Source: Jonesia quinghaiensis DSM 15701 (GTDB lineage Bacteria > Actinomycetota > Actinomycetes > Actinomycetales > Cellulomonadaceae). Taken from it: 64,000 nt of DNA. The position numbers and the translations under genes were made by a program. The notes under the pieces were generated by a model, which saw nothing but the letters and a program-made list of their open reading frames with translations, had not been told where the DNA came from and did not search any database. Below are positions 11,642-31,567 of this stretch, one piece after another. Location: NCBI RefSeq assembly GCF_000423205.1, contig NZ_AUHN01000004.1, positions 310,001 to 374,000 of the forward strand. The letters run 5' to 3'. Position 1 is the stretch's first letter. The number at the start of each line of letters is the position of its first letter.

Positions 11642-12418
11642 TCACACGGTACGCGAGATGAAAGCCCCCACCGCGACAAGCATCGTGAAACCGACGATGC
11701 CCGCCCCAGCGAACAGCGCATCGGCTCGCCCCAACGCAACGGGTTTCCACACGGTGCGTTCCCCGGTACGTAGCCCGCGTGTTTCCAACGCGAGCGCAAC
11801 CCGTTCCGATGATCGAATAGATGTCACCAGCAGCGCAAACGCGCACCGGCCAAAGTCTGCGACAGTGAACCGTGGCTCGCCGTGGCGGTTGCGTGGCGCC
11901 CGCACCGCGTGGGCGGCGCGGATCGTTGACCAGTGGTGAGGCATTGAATCGAGGAGCCGGTGCCCGGCCATCAACGCCGATGCGAACCGGGGTGACAACC
12001 GTGCGTGCTGCTGCAACGACACCATGAGGTCGCGGGGCGGGGTGGACGCCAGGAAAGCCACCGTTAACGCGCCAATGATCAGTGTACGTAGGGCTAGCGC
12101 AACACCCATCGCTGCGCCTTCGCGGGTGGCGACCAGTGGGCCAAAAGTGGCGATGACTTCGCCTGGGCGGGTGACAGCGTTCACCATGAACACCCCCACC
12201 CCGAAAAGCACAAACGGTGACATGACGAGCGTCAGCCGGGCGACTGGTACACCCGCGCCCACTGTCACGGCAAGGAGCACTGCCGCCAACACCACGGCCA
12301 CAGTGACCGGGTCGGTGAGGAACATAATGCCCAGCGACACCACGGTCAGTACTGCCACTTTGACTGTTGGGTTACGGCGGATCAACCACTGCGCTGATGC
12401 TGTACCAACCAGGTTCAT
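11642..12418 (-). CDS. ykoC: ECF transporter transmembrane T component (YkoC-like)
   Basis: 258 residues with about five helices. It contains Ala-x-x-x-Arg-Ala-Pro-Arg near the C-terminal third (AAHAVRAPRNR) and a later ALETRGL, the two Ala-Arg-Gly-type coupling motifs of CbiQ/EcfT proteins that seat on the ATPases. The start at 12418 overlaps the stop of the double ATPase (ATGA). It is last in the riboswitch-led operon, so the substrate is probably thiamine or its HMP precursor. Confidence 0.88.
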   Translation of the reverse strand: MNLVGTASAQWLIRRNPTVKVAVLTVVSLGIMFLTDPVTVAVVLAAVLLAVTVGAGVPVARLTLVMSPFVLFGVGVFMVNAVTRPGEVIATFGPLVATREGAAMGVALALRTLIIGALTVAFLASTPPRDLMVSLQQHARLSPRFASALMAGHRLLDSMPHHWSTIRAAHAVRAPRNRHGEPRFTVADFGRCAFALLVTSIRSSERVALALETRGLRTGERTVWKPVALGRADALFAGAGIVGFTMLVAVGAFISRTV

Positions 12419-14523
12419 CGCGTTACCTGCGCAACTCGGATAGGGGCCAACGCATCTGTCCCGCCGTGCGTAACAGTGGCATCTGGCAGTTTTGAGTTGA
12501 GTGCGCGGGCGTCCAGTGCGCGGAGCACCTGCTGGCAGGCGGTGTTGTTGGGAGTGCGCGCCGCGACCCACGCGATCAGTGGTGGCACCGCTAGTCCCGC
12601 CTTGTCCACCAAAGCAGGGTCACGGAACAGTTCCCACGGGGTGCAATCAGCAAGTAACCGCCCTTGGTGGAGTACCACCACGCGGTCTGCGTAAGTCGCA
12701 ACCGCCCGCATGTCATGGCAGGAAAACACCACGCCATGTCCGGCACGGCTATGCTCACGCAACGCCGTCAATACCGCCGATGCACCATGCCGGTCCAACC
12801 CAAAAGTTGGTTCGTCCGCACACAAAAAGGCATGATCGTGGGCGAGCATCGACGCCAACGACAAACGCCGTTTTTGGCCACCCGATAACGAAAACGGTGA
12901 CTGCTCAGCGTGCCCGTCAAGCCCAAACCTCACCAGCAACTCATCAACACGGTGGTGGTGTTCTGCCGCGACGTTGTGGCTGACCTCGCCGCGCACCGTG
13001 TTGCCCATGAACTGGTGCTCCGGGTTTTGGAATACCATGCCCCCGCGTGGCCCTGTGAGGGTCCCCGCAACTGGCGCATCGAGCCCGGCAAGTGCTCGCA
13101 GTAGCGTTGTTTTCCCAGTACCGTTCGCCCCAATGAGGGCGACCAGTTCACCTGTGTGAATGGCAAGGTCCAGCCCAGCAACCACAGGGGTTTGCTGGTT
13201 GGTGCGTGATTGTTCGCGGCGTGAATCGTGAGGTTTTCTGGGGCGCTTTCGCTGTGCTTTTCTGCCCAGGCCAGACCTCGGTGCGACCGCCAACTGCTCT
13301 GCGAGAAGAGTTTGTCTTCTCTCCCCCAGCCCCTTCCCCGTCTCCCCCCGTGCGGATGCCACCCCACCTAACGCCACCTCTCCTAACGCCACCTCTCCTA
13401 ACGAAAGTGGGATTGCGCCCACTTTCCCTTTCGAAAGTGGGCGCAATCCCACTTTCGATTGGGGGTTTACGGGGGTGGGGGGCACAGGGGTGGAGTTTAC
13501 GGGGGTGGGGACAAGTAACGCCTCCTGGATGGCAGGGTTCGCCAAGCCGCCCAACTCACCGAAAACACCCAACAGTTCCACATCCAACGGCAACCAACAG
13601 CCCCGCCGCACCAGCATCCGCGCAGTCTCCGCATCAATACTGTCAGCAGGACCATCCCACACCACAGCGCCACGGGCATCGAGCAACACCCACCGGGGCG
13701 GAAGCTCCGCGACCCCACCATGGGCAGCAATTTCATCGAGACGATGCTCAATAAGAACCTGCGCGGCACCCGTCTGTTCCCGCACACTCGCCAACGCGGC
13801 CGTGACATCACGAATGCCCTGGTGGTCCAGCATTGACGTGGGTTCATCGAGCAGCAGCAGCTTAGGGTTGCCCACAATCGCGGCCGCGAGCGCAACCCGC
13901 TGCAACTCTCCACCGGAGAGTTGCGTGGTGTGGCGACCGGTTAGGTGACCCACCCCCGCAAGATCGGCAGCGGCGCGCACCCGCTCACCAATCTGCGAAG
14001 GTGGGACGGCTGCGTTCTCGAGAGGGAAAGCAATGTCGTCCTCCACGAGCGTGAAACACACCCCAGACCACGGGTCTTGCGAAACAACACCGGTGACATC
14101 AGCGTTGTCTGCCGGGTCGTGGTTAGCCATGTCCCGGCCAAAAACATGCACGGTGCCGTGCGCTTCGGCGTGGATGGCGTGCGGGATCGCACCAATGATG
14201 CGCTGCAGCACGGTGGATTTTCCCGACCCTGACGGCCCCATAATGAGCACCGACTCCCCCGGTTTGATGCTCAACGTGACCGGCCCGGTGTGCTGCCCGC
14301 TAGGGAACTGCACCGTGACATCCGTGCACCTGACCGCTGGTAGGTTTTCGGTCTCCTGAGGCGCGGTGTGCGCGGGTGGGGCTGGTTGAGGCGCGGGTGG
14401 GGCTGGTTGAGGCGCGGTGTGCGCGGGTGGGGCTGGTTGAGGCGCGACGCGTGGGGTTACGGCCTGCGTGGTCACACCTTGCGGCGTCACACTTTCCGTG
14501 GTCACGGTGTGCGCGGTGGTCAC
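12415..14523 (-). CDS. ykoD: Fused double ATPase of an ECF transporter (YkoD-like)
   Basis: 702 residues starting with GTG that overlaps the YkoE stop. Two ABC domains are seen: Walker A GPSGSGKST, signature LSGGELQR and Walker B LLLLDEPTS in the first half, then GANGTGKTT, LSGGQKRR and FLCADEPTF in the second. The first ~60 residues are a Pro/Ala/His-rich repeat (APPAHTAPQ units). The inter-domain linker of roughly 90 residues contains a repeated LGEVALGEVALGG and a stretch encoded by a perfect 25-bp DNA inverted repeat. Drives uptake with YkoC and YkoE. Confidence 0.9.
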   Translation of the reverse strand: MTTAHTVTTESVTPQGVTTQAVTPRVAPQPAPPAHTAPQPAPPAPQPAPPAHTAPQETENLPAVRCTDVTVQFPSGQHTGPVTLSIKPGESVLIMGPSGSGKSTVLQRIIGAIPHAIHAEAHGTVHVFGRDMANHDPADNADVTGVVSQDPWSGVCFTLVEDDIAFPLENAAVPPSQIGERVRAAADLAGVGHLTGRHTTQLSGGELQRVALAAAIVGNPKLLLLDEPTSMLDHQGIRDVTAALASVREQTGAAQVLIEHRLDEIAAHGGVAELPPRWVLLDARGAVVWDGPADSIDAETARMLVRRGCWLPLDVELLGVFGELGGLANPAIQEALLVPTPVNSTPVPPTPVNPQSKVGLRPLSKGKVGAIPLSLGEVALGEVALGGVASARGETGKGLGERRQTLLAEQLAVAPRSGLGRKAQRKRPRKPHDSRREQSRTNQQTPVVAGLDLAIHTGELVALIGANGTGKTTLLRALAGLDAPVAGTLTGPRGGMVFQNPEHQFMGNTVRGEVSHNVAAEHHHRVDELLVRFGLDGHAEQSPFSLSGGQKRRLSLASMLAHDHAFLCADEPTFGLDRHGASAVLTALREHSRAGHGVVFSCHDMRAVATYADRVVVLHQGRLLADCTPWELFRDPALVDKAGLAVPPLIAWVAARTPNNTACQQVLRALDARALNSKLPDATVTHGGTDALAPIRVAQVTR
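13402..13457. repeat. Perfect 25-bp inverted repeat inside the ykoD coding sequence
   Basis: Arms 13402-13426 and 13433-13457 around a 6-nt loop. Beside it is a tandem 15-nt unit (acgccacctctccta, near 13375-13405), and G-rich repeats (tttacgggggtgggg) occur near 13465-13510. The whole array falls in the linker between the two ATPase domains and keeps the reading frame. Confidence 0.85.
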
Positions 14524-15278
14524 GGTTTGGCCTCGCGCACAATGGCGAAGTTGTTTAACGCACCCGTGCGTACCAGCGCGTCAACAATGACCTTCGCAAG
14601 GAGCCCACCAAGAATCACCCCAGAACCGCATTGAATGGCGAAACGCAACCAGAAAATGTCCTGCCCAAACCAGCCCATACGGAACGCCGAGTAGAAGAAC
14701 ACAATCCCCGCACCTAACAACCCGGATAGCGCATAGACACCCCATGTGAAACGGCGGTACCGGGTGAGTGCGAAGGCAAGTTCGCTACCAAAACCTTGCA
14801 GGAACGCGGCGATGAGTAACACGGGGCCCATTGGTGAACCGAGGAAGAAAATCTCCACCGCGGCGGCAACAAGTTCCGCAATGATTCCCACACCGGGGCG
14901 GCGAATAATCGCCAACGCAATGGGCGCCACAAGAAGCCACCCACCAAAGAGGATGTGCTGCGACAGGTCACCGGCTGGGCCCATCGCAACGGTCAGCACG
15001 TTCCATGCCTGGACAAGCACCCAGTACAGGAAACCAAACACAACGGATAGCGTGACCATCAGGACGATGTCACGCATCTGGAGCATTGGGCGTTTCCGTT
15101 GCTGCGGGGTTGCGGGGGCAGGGGGTGTTACTGGGGTCGAGCTTGTCGATGCGGGACCGGGTTGAGGAGTGCTCTGCGGTGCACTGGTGGTGCCGCTGGT
15201 TGGTTGAGGGGTGTCGCCTGCGGGTTGGGTGGTGTCGTTGGCTGGTTGTGGAGTGTCACCCGTGGTGTTCGTGGTCAT
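14520..15278 (-). CDS. ykoE: ECF transporter substrate-binding S component (YkoE-like)
   Basis: 252 residues. Residues 1-60 are Thr/Pro/Gln-rich and probably disordered. The remainder has about five to six helices: RDIVLMVTLSVVFGFLYWVLVQAWN begins the membrane part, followed by GPVLLIAAFLQGFGSELAFAL, resembling YkoE S components. YkoE is the membrane-embedded capture subunit for thiamine or hydroxymethylpyrimidine. It overlaps the neighbouring genes on both sides within the operon (TGATG with ykoF, GTGA with ykoD). The disordered N-tail is an addition relative to Bacillus YkoE. Confidence 0.88.
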   Translation of the reverse strand: MTTNTTGDTPQPANDTTQPAGDTPQPTSGTTSAPQSTPQPGPASTSSTPVTPPAPATPQQRKRPMLQMRDIVLMVTLSVVFGFLYWVLVQAWNVLTVAMGPAGDLSQHILFGGWLLVAPIALAIIRRPGVGIIAELVAAAVEIFFLGSPMGPVLLIAAFLQGFGSELAFALTRYRRFTWGVYALSGLLGAGIVFFYSAFRMGWFGQDIFWLRFAIQCGSGVILGGLLAKVIVDALVRTGALNNFAIVREAKP

Positions 15279-22904: not shown

Positions 22905-24506
22905 ATGTCTCAAAGGACCCTCACCGTCGGCAGCCCCTGGCGCGTGATCCTCCTCTTCACCGTTCCCCTATTGATCGGTAACCTCGTCCAGCAGATGTAC
23001 CACGTCATCGACGCGATGGTAGTGGGCAATGTGCTGGGTGTGACGTCCCTCGCTGCCGTTGGCGCAACAGGGTCGTTGCTGTTTTTGCTGCTCGGTTTCG
23101 CGTGGGGCATGACCTCTGGGTTTGCTATCCCCACCGCACAGGCTTTTGGTGCCGGTGATTTGCGTGGCGTGCGCCGGTCGGTGGCTGCAGGCGCGTTGCT
23201 GTCTGCTGGGGTGAGCATCTTCCTCACCATTGTGGCCCCATTGATTGCCCGGCCCGTGCTGGTGTTGCTACGCACCCCACCCGAGCTCCTCGATCAGGCG
23301 ACAACGTTCGCGGTGATCAGCTTTTTGGGCGCTGGGGCAACCATGTTTTTCAACTTCCTGTCAGCGATTATTCGTGCGATCGGTGACTCTAGGACGCCGC
23401 TCATTTTCTTGGTGATTGCCTGCCTGATGAACGTGGTTCTTGTTGTGGCGTTCGTGGCGTGGCTTGGGTACGGCGTCGGCGGTGCAGCGTTGGCAACAGT
23501 GTTGTCACAGTTGTTGTCCGTGGTGTTGTGTTTGCTGTTTGTGCGCCGCCGGTTACCTGTGCTGCACGTACAGCGTGAGGATTGGCGGGTCACTCGCGCC
23601 GAGCTAGGCCACCACTTACACCTTGGTTTACCGATGGGTTTCCAAGCATCAATCATCGCGATTGGCACGCTGGCAGTGCAGGTTGCGTTGAACACCCTTG
23701 GCGCCGATGCCGTGGCCGCGTACACCACAGCCACCCGCGTTGACGGCCTCGCCATTGCGTTCCTGGCATCGTTGGGGTTGGCGGTTTCGACGTTCTCCGC
23801 ACAGAACTATGGTGCTGGGTTGATGGACCGCATCCGTGTTGGTGTGCGACAAAGTTTGTGGATGTCCGTGGCTGGTGGGCTTGCCCTAGCTGCGGTACTC
23901 ATTACCGCTGGTGGCCCCATTGTGCGGTCGTTTGTTGGGAACGACGCTGAAGGCGTTGTGGACATGGCGCACTGGTTCCTGGTCACAAACGGTTCGTTGT
24001 ATGTGGTGTTGGGTGTGCTGTTTGTGCTGCGCGGCGCTCTGCAAGGCTTGGGTTACACGCTGGTTCCCACGTTGACTGGTGTTATCGAACTGGTGATGCG
24101 TGTTGGTGCGGCCATTATTTTGGGTGCCTTGTTTGGGTTCACTGGCATTGTGTGGGGTAACCCGTTGGCATGGGTTGGCGCTGTGGTGTTGTTGGTGCCG
24201 GCATGGCGCGCTGCCCGGCTGAAACTCGCTACGACCGCGACACCTTCTGGGGCATCGGCGGCCTTTAGCGGGCCGAACGCTTTCGGTGGGTCTGACACAG
24301 TGAAGGATACAACCGGTGTGGGCGACAACGATGTTCACGCTGATGCTGCTCCCATGCCCCTTGGGGTATCCGAGGCTGACCGGGATATGGCGGTGTCACT
24401 GCTCGCTAACAGCGTCCCGGACGAGTATGAACCCCACGACGACGCCCACGGCCTGCGCCACTCTACCCAGGCCTCTCCCCAGCCCTCTCCCCAGCCGAGA
24501 TCCTAG
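22905..24506 (+). CDS. MATE-family efflux transporter
   Basis: 533 residues from the ATG at 22905. Twelve hydrophobic segments are arranged as two similar halves. The N-terminal segment SPWRVILLFTVPLLIGNLVQQMYHVIDAMVVGNVLG and the matching GLPMGFQASIIAIGTLAVQ in the second half are MATE hallmarks. Exchanges cytotoxic cations or metabolites for Na+ or H+. It carries a ~90-residue acidic cytoplasmic tail, whose last residues (QPSPQPRS) and stop codon are encoded inside the 73-bp compound palindrome. Upstream in-frame starts back to 22827 are not membrane-like and are rejected. Confidence 0.9.
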   Translation: MSQRTLTVGSPWRVILLFTVPLLIGNLVQQMYHVIDAMVVGNVLGVTSLAAVGATGSLLFLLLGFAWGMTSGFAIPTAQAFGAGDLRGVRRSVAAGALLSAGVSIFLTIVAPLIARPVLVLLRTPPELLDQATTFAVISFLGAGATMFFNFLSAIIRAIGDSRTPLIFLVIACLMNVVLVVAFVAWLGYGVGGAALATVLSQLLSVVLCLLFVRRRLPVLHVQREDWRVTRAELGHHLHLGLPMGFQASIIAIGTLAVQVALNTLGADAVAAYTTATRVDGLAIAFLASLGLAVSTFSAQNYGAGLMDRIRVGVRQSLWMSVAGGLALAAVLITAGGPIVRSFVGNDAEGVVDMAHWFLVTNGSLYVVLGVLFVLRGALQGLGYTLVPTLTGVIELVMRVGAAIILGALFGFTGIVWGNPLAWVGAVVLLVPAWRAARLKLATTATPSGASAAFSGPNAFGGSDTVKDTTGVGDNDVHADAAPMPLGVSEADRDMAVSLLANSVPDEYEPHDDAHGLRHSTQASPQPSPQPRS

Positions 24507-24566
24507 ATCTCGCACTGAGATCCTTGTCCACGGCGAGGATCTCACGCCGACATCTAGGATCTCGGC
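24494..24566. repeat. Compound palindromic repeat, copy A (73 bp)
   Basis: Outer arms of 15 bp (24494-24508 and 24552-24566) enclose inner arms of 9 bp (24516-24524 and 24536-24544) with an 11-nt loop. All four arms share the 8-mer GAGATCCT or its complement AGGATCTC. It differs from copy B (31403-31475) at three of 73 positions. It holds the stop codon of the MATE gene and the last codons of the opposing NAD-kinase-like gene. Confidence 0.9.
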
Positions 24567-25519
24567 GTGGAGGAGGTAGCAGGCGTGGGGGAGGTAGCAG
24601 AAGTGGGCGACGCGGGCGACGCAAGGAGGAGTCGTTGCTCGGCAACCCCGATGCGCAGCGTTTGCCCCCAGGTGAGGGTGAGCCGGTCAGTTTCAATGCC
24701 GTCACCAAAGGTGACAAGTTGGTCTGATTCCACGGTGATGTCCAGGTGCACACCGCGAGAAATAACCCCTTCAGTGAGGGTCGCTTGGGTGGCGGGTGAT
24801 GGCCACGCTTCACGCACAAACCAGGCGAGAGCCGCATCGGACTGTGCTGGCAAACGCCGCCCACCGCGATCACGGCTGATTGATGCCAACCAACCGGTTG
24901 CCCCTGTTCCTGTCCCGACAATGATCCCGGACGATGCTTGCCGTTCGCTGGCCTCCGCGGTTCGCACACTGTAACGGGCGGATTGGTGACGTTCGTGCCC
25001 AACATACAGTTCGTTGAGTGCCCGCAAGGTTTGCCCGTCATCAAGCGCACCTTCCACCATGGTGAGTTGATTGTGGGTGATGAGTTTGGTTGCGTGCGTT
25101 CCGTGCTGGTCCTCAGCTATGCGTCCGATGCTCGCTGTGGCATCGGCGGTACTGTGGCGCACCAGCACCCCGGCATTTACCCCTGGGGCGGCGTCCACTC
25201 CGATCACAAGTTGGTTGGTGATGTATTTCGCGGTGTTTGCAACGAGCCCGTCTTGCCCAATGACAAGCACGACATCCTCGGGGGCGAACAAAAACCGGGA
25301 CAAGTCAGCGCGTTCAACGTGAGCCACGGCCCAGTCGGTGGGTATGGCACTGAGGATTGTGGCTATCGCTTCTGTGGTGGTGTCGTGACGTTGTTGCACG
25401 TCATCGAGGGTGCGGCCGCGTGTGCGGAGGAAGAACTCTGCTTGCCCACGGGTGGCGTGGCGGTTGAGGAGTTCGTCAAGTTCGGTGCGGCGGTGGACGA
25501 TGACTGCGCGGCGTCTCAT
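24554..25519 (-). CDS. NAD-kinase-like protein
   Basis: 321 residues. The frame shows an NAD/diacylglycerol-kinase-type core: a GQDG-x-x-x-NTAKY segment near residue 90 in place of the usual GGDG, and GTGTGATGW near 200 corresponding to the G-T-G-S/T-T-A-Y loop of NAD kinases. A C-terminal all-beta segment ends DGIETDRLTLTWGQTLRI. The changed Gly-Gly-Asp-Gly motif leaves activity open. The final ~20 residues (Ser/Thr/Pro repeats) are encoded partly by the compound palindrome and lie outside the fold. It overlaps the SPFH gene by ATGA, so the two are co-expressed. Not the housekeeping NAD kinase by length and motif. Confidence 0.75.
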   Translation of the reverse strand: MRRRAVIVHRRTELDELLNRHATRGQAEFFLRTRGRTLDDVQQRHDTTTEAIATILSAIPTDWAVAHVERADLSRFLFAPEDVVLVIGQDGLVANTAKYITNQLVIGVDAAPGVNAGVLVRHSTADATASIGRIAEDQHGTHATKLITHNQLTMVEGALDDGQTLRALNELYVGHERHQSARYSVRTAEASERQASSGIIVGTGTGATGWLASISRDRGGRRLPAQSDAALAWFVREAWPSPATQATLTEGVISRGVHLDITVESDQLVTFGDGIETDRLTLTWGQTLRIGVAEQRLLLASPASPTSATSPTPATSSTPRS

Positions 25520-31402: not shown

Positions 31403-31475
31403 GCCGAGATCCTAGATGTCGCACTGAGATCCTTGTCCACGGGGAGGATCTCACGCCGATATCTAGGATCTCGGC
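31403..31475. repeat. Compound palindromic repeat, copy B (73 bp)
   Basis: Same structure as copy A at 24494-24566: 15-bp outer arms (31403-31417, 31461-31475) around 9-bp inner arms, all built on GAGATCCT/AGGATCTC. Only three base differences from copy A. Both copies face downstream into G-rich short repeats. Confidence 0.9.
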
Positions 31476-31477
31476 GT

Positions 31478-31567
31478 GAAGGGCGGTGGGGTGGAGGGCG
31501 GTGGGGTGGAGGGCGGTGGGGTGAAGGGCGGTGGGGTGAAGGGCGGTGGGGTGGAGGCAGTGGGGGG
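31478..31567. repeat. Tandem 15-nt G-rich repeat array
   Basis: Five units of g(g/a)agggcggtggggt in a row (31478-31552) plus a degenerate sixth. The runs of G give quadruplex potential on the plus strand. It lies directly downstream of palindrome copy B. Confidence 0.85.

Follow-up and report, generated by a model that had tools for sequence, protein, structure and literature searches.

A tailed, apparently mobile palindromic element in the interdomain linker of YkoD of Jonesia quinghaiensis, with parallel families in a sister species and a second genus

A palindrome inside ykoD and the systems closest to it

Several described systems of short palindromic repeats bear on the element reported here. 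Rickettsia palindromic elements (RPEs) are described as short palindromic repeats of about 150 bp that lie in-frame inside protein-coding genes, very often within open reading frames (ORFs), and MITEs as short, non-autonomous, inverted-repeat elements (both PMC10969869). REPINs, in which two palindromic units in inverted orientation together make one longer hairpin, are dispersed, similar within a genome, mostly extragenic and linked to RAYT genes (PMC3116915). The CGTC REPs are reported to have no known transposase, and REPs can lie within genes; some REP dimers sit inside larger palindromes, and one type in T. roseum is C-rich on its left and G-rich on its right (PMC3733652). REP-like palindromes have also been tabulated in three Actinomycetota genomes, in a paper that presents a tool (PMC12306157). 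The titles and opening abstracts covered by our literature search, which left most subscription papers outside it, held no description of outward G-rich tails or of such elements in this group. To our knowledge, there is no agreed mode of movement for palindromic repeats that come without a dedicated transposase, the CGTC REPs being an example.

In this study, we have analysed a window of 64,000 nucleotides from J. quinghaiensis, in which ykoD (12415..14523, minus strand) encodes a fused ECF-type ATPase of 702 amino acids with two ABC_tran domains. A preliminary description of this DNA had noticed a perfect 25-bp inverted repeat, a 15-nt tandem and a G-rich repeat within the reading frame between the two ATPase domains. 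These observations hold: palindrome and tandems lie inside the ykoD ORF, between both ABC_tran matches, and the inverted repeat (13402..13457) has perfect 25-bp arms around a loop of 6 nt. Its sequence, which is the core of family 1, reads AAAGTGGG-N6-CCCACTTT-N8-AAAGTGGG-N6-CCCACTTT with flanking CG. To its left is a C-rich tail (13358..13401), G-rich when read outward, with three 15-nt tandem copies (3.1 copies of GCCACCTCTCCTAAC at 13358-13403); to its right is a G-rich tail (13458..13510) with three imperfect 15-nt copies (a tandem of 2.9 copies at 13465-13508). As single-strand DNA, the palindrome folds at -32 kcal/mol (z = -12), a fold matched by 0 of 200 shuffles, and the proposed check of mRNA structure gave z = -6.3 for the ykoD mRNA around it. 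The chance expectation of the 22-bp family-1 half-site in the window is 0.00. None of the six frames of the core has a stop codon, which is true of 3.4% of random 56-mers of the contig. The repeats of APPAHTAPQ type that had been reported at the N-terminus of YkoD are real (14357-14446); these and the TPQP-type N-terminus of YkoE (15186-15275) consist of G-rich tandem repeats and have no palindrome core, and the N-terminal extension of YkoD is mostly missing from the sister species.

Dispersed families and sites in the sister species

A search of the host genome (3.04 Mb in 12 contigs) for the arms, also suggested in the preliminary description, recovered the family-1 core at 16 loci: 13 on contig 1 (C1; 667 kb, carrying oriC), one on C2 and two on C5. 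In 14 of these copies the N6 spacers mirror one another, variant spacers included (the ykoD copy and C1:484532), the exceptions being C1:180788 and C5:244885. Solitary half-sites are absent from the host as exact matches; one exists at two mismatches and ten at three, the latter not above the 19 found for a control pattern. Among 58 other genomes, 57 are without the core, and the same-genus sister G001 has one copy, at the orthologous site of C1:180788 (flanks 86-89% identical). When the whole double hairpin was searched for, with its fixed bases required to match exactly, neither genome_contigs nor viral_contigs yielded a hit, although records very close to the host may be missing from these collections. 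An 18-base half-site resembling family 1 occurs in 47 public stretches from other phyla, one site each, several of them Clostridia, Chloroflexi and Neomarinimicrobiota MAGs; we tentatively read these as unrelated hairpins.

Scanning for switches from a C-rich to a G-rich strand revealed two more palindromes in the window, which share the layout of the ykoD element and differ from it in core. One (24494..24566) separates a MatE ORF from a convergent ORF of 321 aa; both ORFs terminate within this palindrome, which is flanked by a C-rich left tail with a 12-nt tandem (24461..24493) and a G-rich right tail with 18-nt and 9-nt tandems (24567..24622). Across 24461-24622, the C-terminal residues of MatE are encoded by the left tail and core end, and those of the 321-aa ORF by the right tail and core end. 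The other (31403..31475) also lies between convergent ORFs and has a G-rich right tail of six 15-nt repeats (31476..31565). Both belong to family 2, which has 26 copies in the host and none in G001. Comparison of C1 with itself returned three dispersed short families of at least three copies. Family 3 has 14 copies in the host and none in G001, whereas family 4 is G001's own, with at least 12 copies at E<=0.01, additional degenerate ones in the stretches examined, and none in the host. Family 5 belongs to another genus (genome G009) and occupies at least 25 loci, 26 counting one partial copy, with none in the congener G033; these figures are limits, 40 of 74 and 40 of 77 candidates having been scored.

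Each core, 56-73 bp long, consists of a short unit repeated in inverted pairs. Inspection by eye gives the order unit-spacer-unit-loop-unit'-spacer-unit' for families 2, 3 and 5, the order unit-unit'-unit-unit' for family 1, and for family 4 an outline like that of family 3 with a degenerate inner part. Near position 110420 of its C1, G009 has a second candidate tailed palindrome whose core differs. On C2 of the host, five family-2 copies fall within 5.4 kb (315350-320693), and in two of these the sequence is nearly the same, into part of the right flank, a pattern that suggests local duplication. In genome G005, the first 200 kb of the contig held no repeat family of at least three copies and no outstanding tailed palindrome, a weak negative since the G009 family is also single-copy in such a stretch and dnaA was unrecognised in G005.

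The comparison with G001 speaks to insertion. At C1:179280 the G001 site is empty, with flanks 91% and 90% identical and a net gain of 109 bp in the host; at C1:183222 it is empty as well (flanks 86% and 70% identical, net gain 93 bp). The comparison was limited to C1, with 21 copies on other contigs left out, and covers the 13 of the 35 copies of families 1-3 there for which the available G001 stretches offered an anchor on each side (anchors 65-91% identical), the other 22 being without two-sided anchors. The host shows a net gain at 11 of these 13 sites, of 69-395 bp; at the remaining two, G001 is longer because of other DNA at that place. At 10 of the 11 gaining sites the host has gained more than the length of the core, so that tail DNA is new too, although weakly anchored sites may include other change. 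In the intergenic region at C1:489537, the host has a family-3 element, and G001 has an element resembling its own family 4 at the orthologous place.

The same comparison supports the earlier proposal that the ykoD linker was lengthened by repeat DNA with the frame preserved. The sister ykoD is without the palindrome and 201 nt (67 codons) shorter at this place, the gap between alignable blocks being 534 nt in the host versus 333 nt in the sister. Orthologue linker length, proposed as a check, agrees: from Walker A to Walker A, host YkoD spans 369 aa, against 243-328 aa in 17 other fused-ATPase ORFs with both motifs (from 29 loci, and some maybe not true YkoD orthologues). Under the alternative of an old, conserved linker, orthologues would share the linker codons; the single close orthologue that was aligned does not show this. 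The proposal was incomplete in that the event is not private to ykoD: the palindrome belongs to a dispersed, apparently mobile family. Gene context was surveyed for the 35 C1 copies with a simple ORF call in which genes occupy 90% of the contig. Most elements lie between genes, but three of these copies are enclosed in ORFs that have Pfam domains to either side of the copy: the one in YkoD, one in HrpA (residues 719-738 of 1554 aa, between HA2_C and OB_NTP_bind) and one in a CydD-like ABC exporter (residues 404-428 of 654 aa, between membrane and ATPase domains). Relative to G001, the net gains are +201 nt in YkoD, +150 in HrpA and +69 in the exporter, all multiples of three, and in the protein alignments of HrpA (71% identical to G001) and the exporter (65%) the insertions fall at the linker. 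The two family-1 in-frame copies are read in different frames. Furthermore, two ORFs, an ABC protein of 606 aa and one of 194 aa, terminate in, or just past, a copy. Pfam was run on the enclosing ORFs at 110381, 195066, 31885 and 524306 and on ykoD; those at 191736, 472399, 557374, 587755 and 490852 (100-216 aa), outside the Pfam run, were taken as spurious by length. In the wider picture, the repeat survives in-frame where a linker is struck, and a selfish-looking repeat can extend interdomain linkers while the reading frame is kept open.

Outward G-rich tails, location and mobiliser

On average, the flanks of the elements read G-rich outward over 60-100 nt per side. Mean outward GC skew over the first 20 nt is 0.37-0.63 across the five families and comes near 0 by 80-140 nt (profiles from 16/16, 11/26, 11/14, 11/12 and 16/26 copies of families 1 to 5, those of families 2 and 3 being the C1 copies). 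The strongest C-to-G switches on C1 coincide with the elements, which make up all of the top 12 and 14 of the top 15, with the ykoD copy ranking first. A switch score of at least 10 is reached by 21 of the 35 C1 copies versus 1.2% of random sites. The other 14 are without strong paired tails, several scoring near 0 or negative (family 1: -1, 5; family 2: 7, 8, 9, 9; family 3: 6, 8, 1, 5, 0, 9, 2, -1), and family 3 has the weakest tails, with 3 of 11 copies at 10 or above. Neither control set has such tails: skew is 0.12 falling to 0 at 48 other perfect hairpins on C1, and -0.15 to -0.03 at 26 E. coli K-12 REP/BIME clusters in 300 kb, located by motif. G-quadruplex motifs are present on the outward strand of 15 of 70 C1 tails, on the other strand of 0 of 70 and in 0.27% of random 80-mers; exact tandem self-overlap of at least 10 nt is present in 23 of 70 tails versus 1.2% of random 80-mers. 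Similarity between the left and the right tail of a copy does not significantly exceed that between tails of different copies (permutation p 0.12, 0.66 and 0.92), which leaves unsupported the idea that they are copied from one another by fold-back synthesis. Ku-dependent end joining was rejected as the maker of the tails on the grounds that host and sister have no Ku, for which the control was positive in 1 of 14 genomes.

As for a mobiliser, Y1_Tnp (PF01797), the domain of RAYT genes and the sole transposase class searched, is present in 0 of 2 genomes, host and sister (control positive in 5 of 14, E. coli included), and a RAYT/IS200 transposase was rejected on this ground. No target-site duplication was found at the cleanest empty site, the other sites being too diverged. 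Covariation in families 2 and 3 shows no excess over column shuffles, so that we rejected an RNA structure under selection for these two families; family 3 often has a broken inner stem, and no Rfam family reaches gathering score in the window. What is conserved is the repeated unit rather than pairing, and therefore DNA recognition by a protein is favoured over a selected RNA structure.

Based on these results, the palindrome in ykoD probably represents a short palindromic element, non-autonomous and apparently mobile, that resembles REPINs and RPEs and entered the gene with its tails. The observed support consists of dispersed near-identical copies, empty sites in the sister, net gains that exceed core length at 10 of 11 sites, in-frame copies and parallel families. 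In such a scenario, a C-rich tail, the 56-bp core and a G-rich tail would have been inserted into ykoD for a net gain of 201 nt, a multiple of three, and the insert would now encode additional residues of the interdomain linker. A protein would read the repeated short unit and move the element, perhaps in hairpin or single-stranded form, and the tails would be made or acquired at insertion rather than grown later. Movement is here deduced from comparing sequences, a comparison in which tail DNA is not distinguishable from later repeat expansion. Genic insertions would persist only when the frame is kept and a linker is hit, and the ykoD copy would therefore be tolerated rather than useful. It is also possible, and we propose this more tentatively, that the elements are bacterial mobile palindromes spread by an undescribed mechanism, with a hairpin core and a G-rich, partly repetitive tail tending to lie on each 3' end; tails would be made or captured at integration with a telomere-like polarity, the unit would be replaced from species to species, and copies would be enriched near the replication origin.

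Other explanations have to be weighed against these data. With a C-rich upstream stretch and a hairpin on both strands, the elements could be functional bidirectional terminators or insulators, in which C-rich, G-poor RNA and a hairpin form a Rho-loading site selected at gene ends. Among the 25 C1 copies outside called ORFs, tail skew is indeed higher facing gene 3' ends (0.47, n=30) than facing 5' ends (0.27, n=20; p=0.037), and neighbours are convergent at 10 of 25 copies versus 84 of 358 background gaps (p=0.05). These p-values are marginal, however, the ORF calls are crude, and the skew is also present on the sides that face 5' ends. Moreover, the strongest tail pair of the contig sits within translated ykoD, the HrpA copy also scores high (14), and copies in one genome have nearly the same core and another species has different ones in their place, neither of which selection for termination needs; we regard this explanation as unlikely. 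Another account of the ykoD copy does without a mobile element and has the linker lengthened locally, through slippage and fold-back synthesis. It would fit the 15-nt tandem units to the left and right of the palindrome, and also the many tails that have slippage-like repeats (23/70 vs 1.2%). For the core it is contradicted by the same 52-bp sequence at 15 other host loci; left and right tails that are not measurably copies of each other also speak against it, and it appears highly improbable.

The location of the elements raises the question of whether they serve the chromosome. In the host, dnaA lies at C1:449 kb, and C1, 22% of the genome, carries 13/16, 11/26 and 11/14 copies of families 1-3. 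This amounts to 35 of 56 copies (binomial 8e-11, treating copies as independent though clusters violate independence); for family 2 alone (11/26), p = 0.016. All 12 of 12 family-4 copies of G001 are within 127 kb of dnaA, and 12 of 26 family-5 loci in G009 are within 350 kb of the contig start (p = 0.002), a region that has an ORF with a DnaA-like motif. Such placement, and repeated inverted units that resemble sites for a protein, could mean that the elements are chromosome-organising binding sites, parS-like in role, read by a fast-evolving protein and kept near oriC by selection. Nevertheless, canonical parS sites are already near oriC in both genomes, and none of the 16-mers resembling TGTTTCACGTGAAACA with up to two mismatches coincides with an element in host or sister. 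Furthermore, the sister is without families 1-3 except for one copy, the unit sequences are wholly different between families, and in-frame genic copies would be unexpected, all of which makes an organising role improbable. Two canonical parS sites of G001 (C1:3320-3363 and 2746197-2746234) lie inside longer perfect palindromes, with 22-bp and 19-bp arms respectively.

Comparison with described palindromic repeats

Set beside the described systems, an apparently mobile palindrome of this kind shares features with each of them. With RPEs, compared here by their description rather than by sequence, it shares in-frame insertion in genes, as in YkoD, HrpA and the CydD-like exporter; it differs in that 3 of 35 C1 copies lie in Pfam-supported ORFs and in its cores of 56-73 bp. 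It resembles MITEs as a short, non-autonomous inverted-repeat element; no target-site duplication was seen at the cleanest empty site, and in family 1, the family searched, no exact solitary half-site that might point to a parent transposon turned up in the host. Short, mobile-looking hairpins are also known as mitochondrial double-hairpin elements and GC clusters, which are organellar (PMC2800124, PMC4478555). The likeness to REPINs lies in inverted units with a short spacer that form one long hairpin, and in the mirrored halves of 14 of 16 family-1 copies. However, Y1_Tnp is absent from host and sister, no GTAG occurs in any family's core tested (one core sequence per family, two for family 1; cores only), and outward G-rich tails are missing from the 26 E. 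coli REP clusters.

As in the CGTC REPs, palindromic dimers occur here without a dedicated transposase and are sometimes genic. In the same cores, families 1-4 have neither CGTC nor GACG, and family 5 has CGTC inside the core rather than at its end. The accessible text of PMC3733652 makes no mention of long, non-homologous G-rich tails, and the REP dimers within larger palindromes that it describes are the nearest precedent for structured flanks. Importantly, two congeners and a second genus have parallel families with a common, unusual anatomy of inverted units and tails that are, on average, G-rich outward, and this anatomy offers a handle on the mechanism, namely on how the tails are made and by what the unit is recognised. 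In conclusion, the kind of element, a REPIN- or RPE-like palindrome, is already known; here it comes without a RAYT gene in host or sister, without a GTAG or CGTC tag at the ends of the cores tested, and with flanks that are on average outward G-rich tails.
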